NCBI RefSeq assembly: GCF_021233435.1 | Contig: NZ_CP089468.1 | Span: 496,001 to 560,000, forward strand | Reading direction: 5' to 3' | Length of the DNA: 64,000 bases | Source of the DNA: Halobacterium noricense | GTDB taxonomy: Archaea > Halobacteriota > Halobacteria > Halobacteriales > Halobacteriaceae | In this document: positions 23,028 to 60,014 of the stretch, one piece after another | Position numbering within the stretch: position 1 is the first letter of the stretch | Layout: each line of letters opens with the position of its first letter | Translations under genes and position numbers: made by a program | Notes under the pieces: generated by a model | The model's database searches: none | What the model was told of the DNA's origin: nothing | Seen by the model: only the letters and a program-made list of their open reading frames with translations

Positions 23028-23387
23028 ATGTCAGAGGGCGGCGAGCTCGTCGCGGAGCTCCAGCAGCAGGCCGGAGACGCACTGCGTGTCGTCGCCGAGT
23101 ACGACAGGGAAGGCTACGACGTCCACTACGTCCGCGAGGACGTCGGCGCGCGTCTGGACGAGCGCGCGGACGCCATCCACCGGAACCTCGTGCTCGAAGG
23201 CATCAGCCGCGAGCACCTCGAAGACCTCTTCGGCGCGGGCGACCTCCACTGCTCGATGCATCGCTTCGACGAGATGACCGCGTTCCACTTCGCCGAAGAA
23301 GAGTACACGGGGCTGTTCGTCAGCGTCGAGTCCGACGCGGACCTGCCGCTGGCGTCGTTCACGGACACCTGCTGGCGGAGTCTCTAA
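23028..23387 (+). CDS. conserved haloarchaeal-type hypothetical protein (119 residues)
   Basis: MSEGGELVAELQQQAGDALR and onward is an acidic cytosolic protein. Conserved-looking blocks are VVAEYDREGYDVHYVRED and CSMHRFDEMTAFHFAEEEYTGLF. It resembles small haloarchaeal proteins of unknown function seen in many genomes. The start at ATG 23028 replaces a much longer frame-open region that overlaps the preceding gene. Its TAA overlaps the stop of the convergent endonuclease III gene by four bases. Confidence 0.75.
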   Translation: MSEGGELVAELQQQAGDALRVVAEYDREGYDVHYVREDVGARLDERADAIHRNLVLEGISREHLEDLFGAGDLHCSMHRFDEMTAFHFAEEEYTGLFVSVESDADLPLASFTDTCWRSL

Positions 23388-24292
23388 TCGGCGGCCTCGG
23401 CGGGGTCGACGACTTCTTCGGCGAGTTCGTCCACGCCCACCCTATCGCAGAGGTCGTACAGCGGACACGCCTCCGGGCCGTCGAGGCACGCGGGCTTGCG
23501 CGCCGAACAGTACTCGCGGCCGAACTGAATCATCGCCGTATGTCCGAACCCGCACTTCTCACCCTGGACCTCGGCCTCTAGGGCTTCGCGCACGTCCTCG
23601 TGGTCGGCATCCGGGGCGGCGAGCCCGAGCCGGCGCGCGATGCGGTGGACGTGCGTGTCCACGGGGAAGACGCCGTCGCGCCCACCCGCGAACAGCAGCA
23701 CGCAGTCGGCGGTCTTCGGGCCGACGCCCTTCATGTCCAGCAGCGCGTCGCGAACCTCGTCGGGGTCGTTGCTCGCGGTTTCACCGTCTTCTCGCGGGCT
23801 CCGCCCGCTCGAACGGTCCGAGGGACTTCGTCCCTCGCTACTCGCTCCGTCCGTGGAGCGTTGCTCCACGCGCCCCGTGCGAACGAACTCGTCGAACGCC
23901 GCTTCGCCGCCGTACTCCTCGCAGATGCGGCCGGCGATGCGAATCAGCGTCTCGGATTTTTGATTGTAGAGTCCTGCCGAGGAGATCGTCTCGGCGAGTT
24001 CGTCCTGGTGGGCGTCCGCGAGCGTCGCCGCGAGGTCCTGCCCGGCATCGTATCTGTCCATCAGCGCGTCGTGGGCGGGCTGGCTGGCGACGTCGCTGGT
24101 GTTCTGACTGAGAATCGTGCGAACGAGACACTCGAAGGCGTCGCGGCCCCCGTACGCCTTCTGCCAGTACATGTCCCCGAGCCGGTCGACGACGGCGTCC
24201 GCGCGGCTCGTGTCGTTGCCGGGCTCGAACTCGGTGAAGCGGCCGGCGGCGGCGTCACCACCCGAGATGTTCTCCGCGGGTTCGTCGTCCAT
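23384..24292 (-). CDS. nth: endonuclease III (DNA glycosylase/AP lyase) carrying a palindromic in-frame insert
   Basis: A 302-residue base-excision repair enzyme. The helix-hairpin-helix DMKGVGPKTAD carries the catalytic Lys, PVDTHVHRIARR the catalytic Asp, and four C-terminal Cys (CSARKPAC to CPLYDLC) form the 4Fe-4S cluster. The Cys spacing is slightly wider than in E. coli. Between EEYGGEAAFDEFVRTG and DPDEVRDALLDM lies a Ser/Arg-rich insert of about 35 residues that includes SSEGRSPSDRSSGRSPRED. It is encoded by three short palindromes and is absent from normal Nth proteins. Its position just before the HhH motif suggests a surface loop. The same peptide recurs in the acetyltransferase near 58.9 kb. 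Confidence 0.93.
   Translation of the reverse strand: MDDEPAENISGGDAAAGRFTEFEPGNDTSRADAVVDRLGDMYWQKAYGGRDAFECLVRTILSQNTSDVASQPAHDALMDRYDAGQDLAATLADAHQDELAETISSAGLYNQKSETLIRIAGRICEEYGGEAAFDEFVRTGRVEQRSTDGASSEGRSPSDRSSGRSPREDGETASNDPDEVRDALLDMKGVGPKTADCVLLFAGGRDGVFPVDTHVHRIARRLGLAAPDADHEDVREALEAEVQGEKCGFGHTAMIQFGREYCSARKPACLDGPEACPLYDLCDRVGVDELAEEVVDPAEAAD
23784..23844 (-). repeat. in-frame palindromic repeat, copy 1 (inside nth)
   Basis: A 61-nt unit that differs from copy 2 (58898-58958) at two positions. It holds perfect stems GCGGGC-TCC-GCCCGC (23794-23808) and CGAGGGAC-TTC-GTCCCTCG (23819-23837). A third stem of the same build, CGTGGAGC-GTT-GCTCCACG (23852-23870), follows in nth only. Read on the minus strand both copies encode SSEGRSPSDRSSG followed by SPREDG, so frame as well as sequence is shared between unrelated genes. 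Confidence 0.85.
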
Positions 24293-34805: not shown

Positions 34806-35217
34806 CGACGCTCGGCTTTCACACGTTCCGCGAACCCACTCAGCCGACAACGGGCGGATTGAAAGGGGCGGCAGCGTGGCGGCAACGCCGCCACGACATT
34901 CGGCGGTCGGCTCCGCCCGACCGCCCGGCTCGCGTTCAGTTTAGTCGTCTCGCGACGCAAGCACCGTAGCGAACGTAGTGAGCGAGGAGCACAGCGAGCG
35001 CGAGGCCGACCAACGGGAGGCCTCGGAACGTGTGAGCGGTGACCGGAGGGAACCGCGAGCGAGCGACCGCGAGCCAGCCGGGGCTTTCGAGGAAGACCCA
35101 TTCTGCGGTCGAGCACGCGGCTCGCGGCTCCCGCTGGTCGCCGCTCGCTCTAACGTGGCCTCACTTCGTTCGGCCACGCTACCCAAACCCTTTCTCCGTG
35201 CTCTACCTAGAGCAGGT
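34806..35217. other. 412-nt intergenic region rich in palindromes
   Basis: No gene is supported. It contains perfect hairpins GTGGCGGC-AAC-GCCGCCAC (34876-34894) and GGCGGTCGG-CTCCGC-CCGACCGCC (34902-34925), the latter 97 nt after the gfcR stop and usable as a 3' structure. Between 34970 and 35150 are purine-rich runs of GAGCGAGCGCGAGG type, which read as low-complexity Arg/Glu/Ser peptide in frame with glutaredoxin but lack its character. The glutaredoxin promoter lies at the right end. Confidence 0.55.
35154..35178. repeat. dispersed 25-nt stem-loop, copy 1 (upstream of glutaredoxin)
   Basis: CGTGGCC (35154-35160), an 11-nt TTCG-centred loop, then GGCCACG (35172-35178). A copy differing at two loop positions occurs at 61998-62022. 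Both end 40-42 nt before a start codon, just upstream of the expected TATA position. Confidence 0.7.
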
Positions 35218-43965: not shown

Positions 43966-44190
43966 CACTTTTTGCTGCGCTCGGCGGCCTCCGGCCGCCT
44001 CACTGGCAAAAACTTGCGGCAAAAGCACTCCTCGCTCCCGATGGTCAGTCGTCGGCCCGCGCTCGTTCGCTGCTCACGGCTCGCTTTGCTCGCCGTTCGC
44101 CCAGAACGAGGCGCTTCGCGCCTCGCACCGCTCACTCGCGCGGTGAACCGCTCGCCTCGGGTCTTTCAGACCACTCGGCTCGCGGATGCT
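43966..44190 (+). repeat. large dispersed 3' repeat, copy A
   Basis: About 225 nt starting 3 nt after a stop codon (CACTTTTTGCTGCGCTCGG) and ending GGCTCGCGGATGCT. It is the inverted counterpart of copy B (46736-46911). Shared blocks are CACTTTTTGCTGC, a 29-nt block at 44005-44033 (one mismatch with 46835-46863), GTCAGTCGTCGGCC, GTGAACCGCTCGC, and the end. Between them are hairpins such as CGAGGCGC-TTC-GCGCCTCG (44107-44125). The T5 run after the stop could also terminate transcription. The further 60 nt to the next gene (44191-44250) show nothing else. Confidence 0.8.
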
Positions 44191-46809: not shown

Positions 46810-46911
46810 CGCGCCCGGAGGGCGCGGCAGGAAGGAGGAGTGCTTTTGCCCCAAGTTTTTGCCAACGAGCGAGGGCGCGTTAGCGCCCGAGCGAGTGCAG
46901 CAAAAAGTGGC
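46736..46911 (-). repeat. large dispersed 3' repeat, copy B (inverted)
   Basis: About 176 nt on the minus strand, starting 3 nt after the korB stop with CCACTTTTTGCTGCACTCG and ending GCTCGCGGATGCT. It lies in inverted orientation to copy A (43966-44190). It contains hairpins GGGCGC-GTTA-GCGCCC and GCGCCC-GGA-GGGCGC and the shared 29-nt block at 46835-46863. Both copies follow immediately after a gene's stop codon in the sense direction, so they could serve as 3' ends. Confidence 0.8.
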
Positions 46912-56238: not shown

Positions 56239-58302
56239 ATGGATACGCTCGACGAAGTGGACGAGATTGTCCACCGACCCGACGACGAGTTCGTCGAGTC
56301 CACGAACGTCTGGCAGTTCATGCAGACGTACGCCATCGCGGACTACGACGAACTCGTCGAGCGCACCACCTCGGACCTCGACTGGTTCTGGGGGGAGCTC
56401 CCCGGCTACCTCGGGCTGGAGTTCTACGAGGACTTCGACGAGGTCCGGGACGAGAGCGGGGCGCGACGCGCCCCGGACGGAGCGAGCGGCGCAGCCGCGA
56501 GCCGTGGCGGCCCACAGTTCACGGAGTGGTATCCGGGCGCGAAACTCAACGTCGCGCACAACACCGTCGACCGCCACGCCGGCGTCGACTCGGGCACCCG
56601 CAACCACGTCGCCTGCATCTGGGAGGGCGAGGACGGCGAGGTCCGCCAGCAGACCTACCACGACCTCCACCGGCAGGCCAACCAGGTCGCGAACGCGCTG
56701 ACCGAGCGCGGCATCGGCGAGGGCGACACGGTCGGGCTCTACATGCCGATGGTGCCGGAGGTCCAGAGCATCCTCTACGGCGTCTTCAAGGTCGGCGCCA
56801 TCGCCGTCCCCATCTTCTCCGGGTTCGGCGTCGACGCCACCGCCACTCGCATCGCGGACGCGGAGTGCTCGGTGCTGTTCACGGGCGACGGCTTCTACCG
56901 CCGCGGCGACGAAATCACGCTCAAGGCGACCGCCAACGAGGCCATCGAGCAGGCCGGCCACGTCGAACACACCATCGTCTACGACCGATTAGGGGCAGAC
57001 ATCCCGTGGAACGACGACCGCGACGAGTGGTGGGGCGACGCCGTCGCGACGCAGGCCGACGACTTCGAGACGCGCGCGATGGACGCCAGCGACCCCTGTA
57101 TGCTCCTGTACTCGTCGGGCACGACGGGGAAGCCGAAGGGTATCGTCCACACGCACGCGGGCACGCTCGTCCAGCCCGCCAAGGAGATTCACTTCGGCTT
57201 CGACCAGAAACCCGGCGATCGCTTCTTCTGGGTGAGCGACATCGGCTGGATGATGGGGCCGTGGACGCTCGTCGGCAACCACGCGTTCGGCGGCACCATC
57301 GTGATGTACGAGGGCGCGCCCGACCACCCCGAACCCGACCGCTTCTGGGACCTCATCGACCGCCACGGCGTCACCCAGTTCGGCATCTCGCCGACCGCGA
57401 TTCGGGCGCTCCGGAAATACGGCAGCCGTCAGACTGCGTCTGACGAGCCATCCGGAACCGAGGGTTCCGGAGACGACGAGTGGCTCGACGGCCACGACCT
57501 CTCCAGCCTGCGCCTGCTGGGTTCGACGGGCGAGCCGTGGGACCCCGAGAGCTGGGAGTGGTTCTACGAGCACGTCGGCGGCGGCGACACGCCCATCATC
57601 AACATCTCCGGCGGCACCGAGGTGTTCGGCTGCTTCCTCATGCCGATGCCCATCCAGCCCCTCAAACCCTGCACGCTCGGCGGCCCGGGCCTCGGCATGG
57701 ACATCGACGTCGTCGACGAGGACGGCAACTCCATCAAGGACGCCCACGAGCGCGGCTACCTGGTCGCGCGGTCCTCGAACCCCGCGATGACGAAGAGTCT
57801 GTGGAGCGGCGACGAGCGCTACCTCGAGGAGTACTGGTCGCGCTTCGAGGACGTCTGGAACCACGGCGACTGGGCGCAGGTCGACGAGGACGGCTTCTGG
57901 TTCCTGCACGGCCGCGCGGACGACGCCATCAACGTCGCCGGCCGGAAGGTCGGCCCCGCCGAGGTGGAGGGCGCGCTCATCGACCACGACGCCGTCAACC
58001 AGGCCGCCGCGGTCGGCGTCCCCGACGACACTACGGGTGAGGCCGTCGTCGCGTACGTGATTCTGGAGGACGACGTCGAACCCAGCGATGACCTCCGGAC
58101 GGAACTCCGCGAGCAGGTCGGTACCGAACTCGGCAAGCCGTTCCGCCCGCGCGAGGTGCTGTTCGTCGACGAGTTCCCGCAGACCCAGTCCGGGAAAATC
58201 GTCCGCCGCGCCATCGAAGGCGCGTACACCGGCGAGGACGTCGGCGACCTCTCCAGCATCGAGAATCCAGACGCCATCGACGCAATCGAGAACGCGCAGT
58301 AG
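56239..58302 (+). CDS. acs: acetyl-CoA synthetase (AMP-forming) with palindrome-encoded inserts
   Basis: A 687-residue ANL-superfamily ligase making acetyl-CoA from acetate and ATP. Key sites are LLYSSGTTGKPKGIVHTH near 290, ISGGTEVFG, GDWAQVDEDGFWFLHGRADD with the ATP-binding Asp, and the acetylatable-Lys motif PQTQSGKIVRR near the C terminus. Two short regions look inserted: ESGARRAPDGASGAAASRGG (about residues 74-93), encoded with a GGGGCGC-GAC-GCGCCCC hairpin, and GSRQTASDEPSGTEGSGDD (about 395-413), encoded by two perfect hairpins. Both lie outside catalytic motifs. The start is ATG 56239. Confidence 0.93.
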   Translation: MDTLDEVDEIVHRPDDEFVESTNVWQFMQTYAIADYDELVERTTSDLDWFWGELPGYLGLEFYEDFDEVRDESGARRAPDGASGAAASRGGPQFTEWYPGAKLNVAHNTVDRHAGVDSGTRNHVACIWEGEDGEVRQQTYHDLHRQANQVANALTERGIGEGDTVGLYMPMVPEVQSILYGVFKVGAIAVPIFSGFGVDATATRIADAECSVLFTGDGFYRRGDEITLKATANEAIEQAGHVEHTIVYDRLGADIPWNDDRDEWWGDAVATQADDFETRAMDASDPCMLLYSSGTTGKPKGIVHTHAGTLVQPAKEIHFGFDQKPGDRFFWVSDIGWMMGPWTLVGNHAFGGTIVMYEGAPDHPEPDRFWDLIDRHGVTQFGISPTAIRALRKYGSRQTASDEPSGTEGSGDDEWLDGHDLSSLRLLGSTGEPWDPESWEWFYEHVGGGDTPIINISGGTEVFGCFLMPMPIQPLKPCTLGGPGLGMDIDVVDEDGNSIKDAHERGYLVARSSNPAMTKSLWSGDERYLEEYWSRFEDVWNHGDWAQVDEDGFWFLHGRADDAINVAGRKVGPAEVEGALIDHDAVNQAAAVGVPDDTTGEAVVAYVILEDDVEPSDDLRTELREQVGTELGKPFRPREVLFVDEFPQTQSGKIVRRAIEGAYTGEDVGDLSSIENPDAIDAIENAQ
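56458..56474 (+). repeat. palindrome inside acs (site 1)
   Basis: Perfect stem GGGGCGC-GAC-GCGCCCC, 7 bp with a 3-nt loop, at the beginning of a low-complexity Gly/Ala/Arg peptide that interrupts the N-terminal region of acetyl-CoA synthetase. A short CGGC-GCA-GCCG stem follows near 56487-56497. Confidence 0.55.
57427..57471 (+). repeat. paired palindromes inside acs (site 2)
   Basis: Two perfect hairpins in-frame: CGTCAGAC-TGC-GTCTGACG (57427-57445) and TCCGGAACC-GAG-GGTTCCGGA (57451-57471). They encode RQTASDEPSGTEGSG between IRALRKYGS and the conserved DLSSLRLLGSTGE block. Stem length and triplet loops match the nth/acetyltransferase repeat, although the sequence differs. Confidence 0.65.
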
Positions 58303-58524: not shown

Positions 58525-59196
58525 TTACTGTATTGCCCACTCGCGGCGCAGGAGGTCGTAGCGCACCTCGTCGTAGTAGTCGCCGTCGATGTACCGGGAC
58601 TCGCGGCGGCGCGCGACCTGCGTGAACCCCATCGCCTCCAGCAGCCCGCGGGAGGCGTCGTTGAACTCGTAGGCGCCCGCGGTGATGCCGTGGACGTCGT
58701 AGTTCTCGAAGACGTAGTCGATGCCCGTCTCGGCCATGTCGCGGCCGTACCCCTCGCCGTGGTACTCGGGGAGCAGCCAGTACGACAGCCACACGCGGTC
58801 GCCGTCCACGTGGCGCGCGTTGAAGCTCCCGATAGGCGTGGTCTCCTCCTCGTTGGGGTGGCCGCGGGGCGCACCTTCCTCGTCTCGCAGCTCGTCGCCG
58901 TCTTCTCGCGGGCTCGGCCCGCTCGAACGGTCCGAGGGACTTCGTCCCTCGCTGCTCGACTGTTTCGCGGCGGTTTCCGCCGCGCCGTCATCGCACGCGA
59001 CGAACGTCGCCGTGCCCTCGCTCTCTATCCACTCCTCGATGCCTTCCTCCTGCTGGGCGCGCGAACGGTGGTGAATCGAGCCCAGCGAGTAGCGGATGCG
59101 GGGGTCCGTACAGGAGCGCTGGATGAACGCCGCGTCGTCGCGCTCGACGGTGCGGAACGTGACGAGCTCGCCCTCGGTGACGACTGGCCCGGGCAT
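58525..59196 (-). CDS. GNAT acetyltransferase carrying the palindromic in-frame insert
   Basis: A 223-residue RimJ/RimL-type N-acetyltransferase (FRTVERDDAAFIQRSCTDP start, then WLLPEYHGEGYGRDMAETG as the acetyl-CoA site and ASRGLLEAMGFTQVARR at the C-terminal end). Between TATFVACDDGA and APRGHPNEEETTPIG lies an extra about 36-residue stretch that includes SSEGRSPSDRSSGPSPRED, the peptide also inserted in endonuclease III. The adjacent paralogue reads ACVDEDDAPYDHPDDEETTPV at the same place without it, defining the insertion. The start ATG 59196 overlaps the stop of that paralogue by one base. Confidence 0.87.
   Translation of the reverse strand: MPGPVVTEGELVTFRTVERDDAAFIQRSCTDPRIRYSLGSIHHRSRAQQEEGIEEWIESEGTATFVACDDGAAETAAKQSSSEGRSPSDRSSGPSPREDGDELRDEEGAPRGHPNEEETTPIGSFNARHVDGDRVWLSYWLLPEYHGEGYGRDMAETGIDYVFENYDVHGITAGAYEFNDASRGLLEAMGFTQVARRRESRYIDGDYYDEVRYDLLRREWAIQ
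58898..58958 (-). repeat. in-frame palindromic repeat, copy 2 (inside acetyltransferase)
   Basis: A 61-nt unit matching 23784-23844 except at two positions, same orientation relative to its host gene and same reading frame. The CGAGGGAC-TTC-GTCCCTCG stem is intact. In the first stem the middle changes from TCC to TCG. The third stem seen in nth is absent here. Confidence 0.85.
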
Positions 59197-59762
59197 TATC
59201 GACCCTCCCACTCCTCGCGGAGCAAGCCGTACTCCACGGCGTCCTGGTACTCGCCCTCCGCGAACCACACCTCGCGGCCGCGGCCCTCGTCGGTGAAGCC
59301 GACAGTCTCGAACGCGGCTCGCGTGTAGTCGTCGCCGTCGAGCACTTCGGCGCCGACGGTGTGGGCGTCGTACGTCCGGAACAGCCCCTTCAGAGCGAGG
59401 TCGACTGCGGCAGCGCCGTGGCCCTCGCCGCGGTGCTCCTCGGGCACCCAGAGCACGAGCCCCGGCCGGTCGCGGTCGACGTGGCTCGCGAACACGAACG
59501 CGACGGGTGTCGTTTCCTCGTCGTCGGGGTGGTCGTAGGGCGCGTCATCCTCGTCCACGCACGCGAGGTAGGCCGCGTTGGACTCGTCCTCGACTTCCTC
59601 TTCGACGAACTCCTCGACCTGTGCCTCACTCTTGTGGCCGCCCGCGTGGAGGCCGAGGCGCGCGTACGGGTCCGTGAACAAGCGCTGGAGGAACGCCGCG
59701 TCGTCGCGCTCGACGGTCCGCAGGACGAGGTCGTCGCTGACTTCGAGTATCGGCCCGGGCAT
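59196..59762 (-). CDS. GNAT acetyltransferase (paralogue without insert)
   Basis: A 188-residue RimJ/RimL-type N-acetyltransferase, MPGPILEVSDDLVLRTVERD and onward. The acetyl-CoA loop is WVPEEHRGEGHGAAAVDL, and DDYTRAAFETVGFTDEGRGR follows. It is a tandem paralogue of the next gene (both start MPGP and share TVERDDAAF, EETTP and the C-terminal REEW). Its stop overlaps the paralogue's ATG by one base, so the two are probably co-translated. The substrates are unknown. Confidence 0.85.
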   Translation of the reverse strand: MPGPILEVSDDLVLRTVERDDAAFLQRLFTDPYARLGLHAGGHKSEAQVEEFVEEEVEDESNAAYLACVDEDDAPYDHPDDEETTPVAFVFASHVDRDRPGLVLWVPEEHRGEGHGAAAVDLALKGLFRTYDAHTVGAEVLDGDDYTRAAFETVGFTDEGRGREVWFAEGEYQDAVEYGLLREEWEGR

Positions 59763-59947
59763 CACTCGCTCACCACGTCGCTGTGTGCGTCGCCGCTCGA
59801 TTCGGGGCCGCTCGCTTCCGCTGTTCGATGCGTACCGCACTGGGTGCTTCCGTCGCGCTCGTCGCCCTCGGGGGCGCCGTCGGCGCGCTCGGAGTCGGCC
59901 GCGCCCGTGGAGGCTCGGCCACCCCAGCAGATTACTGCATCTGGCAT
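59762..59947 (-). CDS. possible small acidic ORF upstream of the GNAT pair
   Basis: 61 codons (MPDAVICWGGRASTGAADSE and onward, ending SDVVSE). Its TGA overlaps the ATG of the first GNAT gene. Composition is acidic and haloarchaeal but of low complexity, and there is no recognisable family. The T/A-rich upstream region is weak. It could equally be leader sequence. Confidence 0.3.
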   Translation of the reverse strand: MPDAVICWGGRASTGAADSERADGAPEGDERDGSTQCGTHRTAEASGPESSGDAHSDVVSE

Positions 59948-60014
59948 GTGTCACCCATTTCACCCCCGGATAATAGCAGTTCCGCGAGATTGGTCCCCAT
60001 TCACGGACGGTCGG

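Follow-up and report, generated by a model that had tools for sequence, protein, structure and literature searches.

Short hairpin units inserted in frame in unrelated protein genes of haloarchaea, a probable non-autonomous mobile palindromic element

The title of Ogata et al. (2002), as cited in PMC2229807, presents protein-coding palindromes as a feature of Rickettsia alone; the Wolbachia cases came later. Three reports describe the Rickettsia elements (RPEs) and the Wolbachia elements as palindromic repeats of 100–150 bp, which lie in frame in unrelated genes and also outside genes, and report RPE insertions at solvent-exposed places; an RPE is described as a single long stem-loop bounded by terminal inverted repeats of 12 bp (PMC2229807, PMC3767692, PMC10969869). 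In haloarchaea, PMC3119063 describes the PATEs of Haloquadratum, which carry IS605-like near-terminal palindromes, and the SMRs, which have terminal inverted repeats and of which SMR-A is found mostly in other mobile elements. The literature searched, in which subscription papers were thinly covered and an earlier description is possible, contained no haloarchaeal protein-coding palindrome family. A widespread haloarchaeal coding-hairpin family, present in dozens of unrelated genes, is apparently undescribed.

In this study, we analyzed a stretch of 64,000 nt of Halobacterium noricense (NZ_CP089468.1, positions 496,001 to 560,000; hereafter the window; its genome is G000). A first-pass annotation of this DNA had noted a 61-nt unit at 23784-23844, in a gene for endonuclease III (nth), and at 58898-58958, in a gene for a GNAT acetyltransferase. 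Both copies are real, and they differ at two positions only. The features of the window are as follows.

23384..24292, minus strand: first host gene, endonuclease III (Nth, HhH-GPD), 302 aa with the insert (ORF; Pfam HhH-GPD, E 2.4e-18)
~23769..23873, minus strand: full 105-nt nth insert, RVEQRSTDGASSEGRSPSDRSSGRSPREDGETASN (filled in G000 and G010; exact empty site in 11 other Halobacterium)
23852..23870, minus strand: nth 5' accessory hairpin, CGTGGAGC AAC GCTCCACG (sequence; model match to positions 7-25; DNA fold)
23819..23837, minus strand: nth hairpin 1, CGAGGGAC GAA GTCCCTCG, 8 bp with triloop (model, fold; covarying)
23794..23808, minus strand: nth hairpin 2, GCGGGC GGA GCCCGC, 6 bp with triloop, flanked by a tandem GA/GA mismatch (model, fold; covarying)
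44063..44131, minus strand: extragenic cousin of the double hairpin, 3' of a stop codon (model match, 34.6 bits, E 1.3e-7)
56458..56508, plus strand: short insert, net 48 nt, at site 1 of the acyl-CoA synthetase (ACS) ORF, GARRAPDGASGAAASRG (model match, 33.5 bits)
57424..57474, plus strand: 51-nt insert at site 2 of the ACS ORF, SRQTASDEPSGTEGSGD (empty-site comparison; fold z-score -5.9)
58525..59196, minus strand: second host gene, GNAT acetyltransferase, 223 aa with the insert (ORF; Pfam Acetyltransf_3, E 1.5e-15)
~58882..58986, minus strand: full 105-nt GNAT insert, GAAETAAKQSSSEGRSPSDRSSGPSPREDGDELRD (filled in G000, G012 and G009; empty in other Halobacterium)
58933..58951, minus strand: GNAT-copy hairpin 1 (model match, fold)
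58908..58922, minus strand: GNAT-copy hairpin 2 (model match, fold)

The shared reading frame and the perfect stems with triplet loops that had been claimed for the two copies were both confirmed. Each copy translates as SSEGRSPSDRSSG(R/P)SPRED, with both host genes on the minus strand, and the stems are of 8 bp (CGAGGGAC GAA GTCCCTCG) and 6 bp (GCGGGC NNN GCCCGC). The extent of the unit had been given as 61 nt, which holds for the conserved core, but the full inserts measure 105 nt, with a further hairpin on the 5' side and a tail on the 3' side. A covariance model made from other species scored the two copies at 85.2 and 83.1 bits (E ~1e-20), which rules out a chance origin. Both ACS inserts are diverged in-frame copies; at site 2 the two-hairpin layout is retained with stems wholly different in sequence.

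The nth copy had been placed in a loop away from the catalytic motifs. The loop was confirmed by alignment to a solved endonuclease III, but the insert lies directly ahead of the HhH helix and ~18 residues before the presumed catalytic lysine, and the Pfam HhH-GPD envelope spans it. An AlphaFold2 prediction for the Nth of the window, made from 31 sequences and with a mean pLDDT of 79.9, has the insert flanked by helices at 130-139 and 177-185, and pLDDT drops under 50 over residues 145-174. For Nth, the one protein examined in this way, the predicted model shows the insert as a disordered loop at a flexible, solvent-exposed position. A PDB search with the insert peptide found no structure that contains it. 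In Nth orthologues of several species (L156, L157, L160, L163), a second site, after ...HDALMxRYD, holds other hydrophilic inserts, e.g., DPADRPASDDDRDGAGS and ASERSSGERNDPRDG, and elements of this kind may have a further hotspot at this position. Neighbouring GNAT genes in one orientation lie at 58525-59963, apparently as tandem paralogues, and the insert is found in one only.

Comparison of filled and empty sites dated seven inserts: Nth 105, GNAT 105, MoeA 105, TRM5/TYW2 114, hydrolase 108, ACS-1 48 and ACS-2 51 nt, all divisible by three; for MoeA, TRM5/TYW2 and the hydrolase, the base-level comparison covered just one to four empty orthologues. Among 13 Halobacterium genomes, the Nth insert is present in two (G000, G010), and the site in the other 11 is intact with no bases lost (ACG GGC GAC CCC in G004). 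The GNAT insert is found in three of the 13 (G000, G012, G009), ACS site 1 is filled in four (G000, G010, G009, G012) and absent from nine, and ACS site 2 is filled in G000 alone and empty in the other 12. Among 59 sampled genomes from the order, no additional species carried the Nth insert at this site. The outcomes that would speak against mobility, namely no further copies anywhere or the same insert in all orthologues of distant genera, were not seen; most relatives lack the insert, and the search for further copies found many across haloarchaea, nearly all in one frame when intragenic. The unit is thus cleanly inserted in many unrelated haloarchaeal protein genes with the host frame kept, and we consider it likely to be a non-autonomous mobile palindromic element.

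Mapped on a gene tree with 11 species, the inserts in Nth, GNAT and ACS-1 have a scattered distribution: G000 carries every one of them, and its sister G004, in which the DNA search found no copy of the unit, carries none. Such a pattern calls for either recurrent gain at a single site or precise loss. Such inserts, common to non-sister species and missing in close relatives, would fit one gain followed by several clean losses, as expected if the copies were an ancient set that is now only lost or recombined and no longer mobile. The G000 and G010 Nth inserts are also mutually close, like their genes. However, near-identical copies lie in unrelated genes of one genome (59 of 61 nt between nth and GNAT), the ACS-2 insert occurs in one of 13 species, and the MoeA and Trm5/TYW2 sites are empty in all three or four relatives compared. 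We regard an ancient set as unlikely. Local recombination as the source of the shared Nth insert was also considered and rejected, since, judged by eye, the G000 flanks are no closer to those of G010 than to those of G004.

A DNA search of the host genome found nine strong copies. All of these, and one weaker, partial copy, are in protein-coding genes and in sense orientation. The hosts are Nth, GNAT, a tetrapyrrole methylase, a TRM5/TYW2 methyltransferase, a periplasmic-binding-type protein, an alpha/beta hydrolase, MoeA, a glutaredoxin-thioredoxin reductase fusion, a protein with no Pfam match and a HerA-type ATPase. With the covariance model, 46 matches were found at E < 0.01, and at least 20 of them are intragenic in the favoured frame by a codon test and reading of the translations; a separate set is extragenic, with the frame broken by stops. 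In the window, extragenic repeats with the motif ACTTTTTGCTGC...GGCAAAAACTTGCGGCAAAAGCACTCCTC and double hairpins like those of the coding element lie at 43967-44131, directly after a stop codon, and at 46830-46907, and units like these repeat elsewhere in the genome, again extragenically (L203, L207, L213, L214). At 34995-35184 there are weak double-hairpin matches in a stretch encoding EREADQREASERVSGDRREPRASDREP, which resembles the flanks of long-form inserts.

The core of ~57 nt has the consensus GAT AGC GCG GAG CGA AGC TCC GCG GAC CGT TCG AGC GGG CAA AGC CCG CGA GAA GAC and contains two triloop hairpins, while full forms are 48–114 nt long. The 6-bp stem of hairpin 2 carries a triloop and is surrounded by a tandem GA mismatch and a further two outer pairs. 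A full-length terminal inverted repeat is absent, the fold giving only partial closure in the Nth copy. In the pattern sample, whose hairpin 2 was constrained by the search pattern and which is covariation evidence for hairpin 1 only, hairpin 1 had 67 double-changed cells. In a sample unselected on hairpin 2 but aligned by the model, 98.3% of cells were paired and 121 were double-changed, versus 33 in shuffles and 2–13 when the structure was slid. Compensatory changes preserve both stems, which shows that the hairpin as such is maintained. Two processes could keep the stems perfect, namely selection for the hairpin and template-switch repair.

The coding frame of the flanks was assigned by a codon-usage score, which was right for 282 of 295 test stretches. 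Among copies with agreeing flanks, 41 of 44 were in one frame of the six, where chance would give one in six, and in ORF-limited windows both flanks were in the favoured frame for 42 copies from 33 distinct gene families; in these counts, copies found at one site of a common host gene are not independent. The favoured frame was unsupported in 15 of 74 pattern matches, some of which appear extragenic. The consensus core is stop-free in five of six frames, and the sixth has a single stop, at its first codon. Only the frame in use combines a strongly hydrophilic peptide with a non-basic charge (GRAVY -1.9, charge -2), the remaining frames being basic or hydrophobic (charge +1 to +7). As these other frames are practically open, selection after insertion would suffice to explain the bias. 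The units add 16–38 residues, with the consensus D-SAERSSADRSSGQSPRED, which is hydrophilic and rich in Ser, Asp, Glu and Arg.

The strong one-frame bias and the recognizable peptide would also be expected of a useful peptide module, such as a linker, a tag or a salt adaptation, spread by selection on protein sequence. This is quite improbable, as the hairpins remain paired while the peptide differs between copies (SEGRSPSD, SAERSSAD, SEARSASD, SRQTASDEPSGTEGSG), and the occurrence of the insert within the same enzyme is patchy. The hairpins are very stable (fold z-scores of -3.3 to -5.9 for most inserts), which suits removal of the insert at the RNA level, like an archaeal intron, or bypass by the ribosome. 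Excision or skipping requires neither an open nor an in-phase insert, yet all seven dated inserts are open, in phase and a multiple of three in length, and Rfam gave no match in the tested stretch around the nth copy up to E 1; we give such removal very little credence. Hydrophilic, disordered peptides could in principle be convergent low-complexity acidic linkers, typical of haloarchaea and of separate origins, but this is already contradicted by up to 97% DNA identity between unrelated genes and by compensatory stem changes that far exceed both controls, and its probability is close to nil.

A frame-blind scan of 84,980 prokaryote genomes with the exact hairpin-2 pattern gave 74 matches, of which 72 were in haloarchaeal records and two came from one MAG titled 'Euryarchaeota archaeon'; no match came from an identified non-haloarchaeon. 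The structure model found the unit in at least 160 of 194 haloarchaeal genomes and at least 57 of 65 genera, with up to 26 per genome, and this count is a lower bound, ~27 candidates having been scored per genome. Carriers include Halobacterium species, Haloarcula vallismortis and Halorussus. Across a sample of the phylum, the model matched 21 of the 28 genomes that belong to the same order and none of 119 genomes from the rest of the phylum, the base composition of these controls not being matched to haloarchaea. Copies are also found on plasmids, in merA (five records), cobN and a mismatch-repair gene, and in three annotated plasmid CDSs (merA, the mismatch-repair protein and cobN) they lie on the same strand and, going by coordinates, in the same frame. 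Phage and viral collections gave zero matches and thus no sign of viral carriage. Several 54-nt model matches with identical scores in G021 and G034 (family f5) likely belong to a separate high-copy repeat family.

The behaviour of the unit agrees with the first-pass suggestion of a likeness to the Rickettsia elements, with qualifications. Like RPEs, it lies in frame in unrelated conserved protein genes and also between genes, and its predicted site in Nth is flexible and solvent-exposed. Unlike RPEs, it is a string of 48–114 nt with two or more separate short triloop hairpins, and it belongs to another domain of life, the exact-pattern scan having returned no Rickettsiales record. We have therefore classed it as an element that works like RPEs and not as a member of them. 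It resembles PATEs and SMRs in being a small, transposase-free, palindrome-bearing haloarchaeal repeat with no consistent target duplication; in their available descriptions, those are not portrayed as in-frame protein inserts (PMC3119063). Compared with SMRs, however, it has no full-length terminal inverted repeat. REPs are 20–40 bp long, mainly extragenic, GTAG- or CGTC-tagged and mobilized by RAYT (PMC3733652). They share with the unit the short palindromic form and high copy number, whereas the haloarchaeal unit is 48–114 nt long and its strong copies are mostly intragenic. ERIC/RU and Correia-type MITEs are likewise small mobile repeats, and their open frames are joined to ORFs of the host, but they bear terminal inverted repeats, often have target duplications and are primarily intergenic (PMC2229807).

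If the unit is a mobile element, its copies would spread via an enzyme acting in trans or by slippage or template switching on single-stranded DNA hairpins. They may land in many positions and frames, with selection retaining only in-frame copies in surface loops, and the retained peptides would be those that suit the high-salt acidic proteome. On translation, the predicted peptide would form a flexible loop that is neutral or carries a mild cost, and clean loss of copies might follow later. The insert junctions showed no consistent target-site duplication; only the Trm5/TYW2 copy has a junction repeat longer than 3 nt, of 8 nt or slightly more. A simple link to Y1 transposases is not seen, since copy number across the genus does not track their presence. 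Y1_Tnp is present in G000, G010 and others and absent from the copy carriers G003, G012 and G009, and G003 (11 copies) and G012 (10 copies) both lack Y1 transposases. It is conceivable, if doubtful, that a class-wide archaeal coding-hairpin system has its own machinery, with phase and length set before insertion and a cassette for a translatable, disordered peptide delivered in frame and exactly removable. That would mean a mobile element adapted to life inside proteins and not merely tolerated there.

A large, unrelated archaeal case would mean that this route to new protein segments has more than one origin, and its free-living hosts would mean that obligate intracellular life is not needed for protein-coding palindromes. 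With many culturable carriers and natural pairs of filled and empty enzymes, the effects of the insert on proteins and its movement can be tested. For annotation, odd insertions and recurring 'SSGQSPRED'-like stretches in haloarchaeal proteins would share one cause.

Some copies depart from the standard form. The glutaredoxin-TrxB fusion (L008/L196) has a composite insert, in which extra AT-rich and GC-rich hairpins stand 5' of a standard hairpin 2, perhaps as nested or stacked units. In L139 and L042, peptide motifs are repeated beside the core (ADRREASNRVS... on either side in L139), which suggests tandem copies. A weak match in a truD-like gene (L216, G000:C1:352950-353012) lies on the strand opposite the apparent coding frame and is possibly a rare antisense copy.
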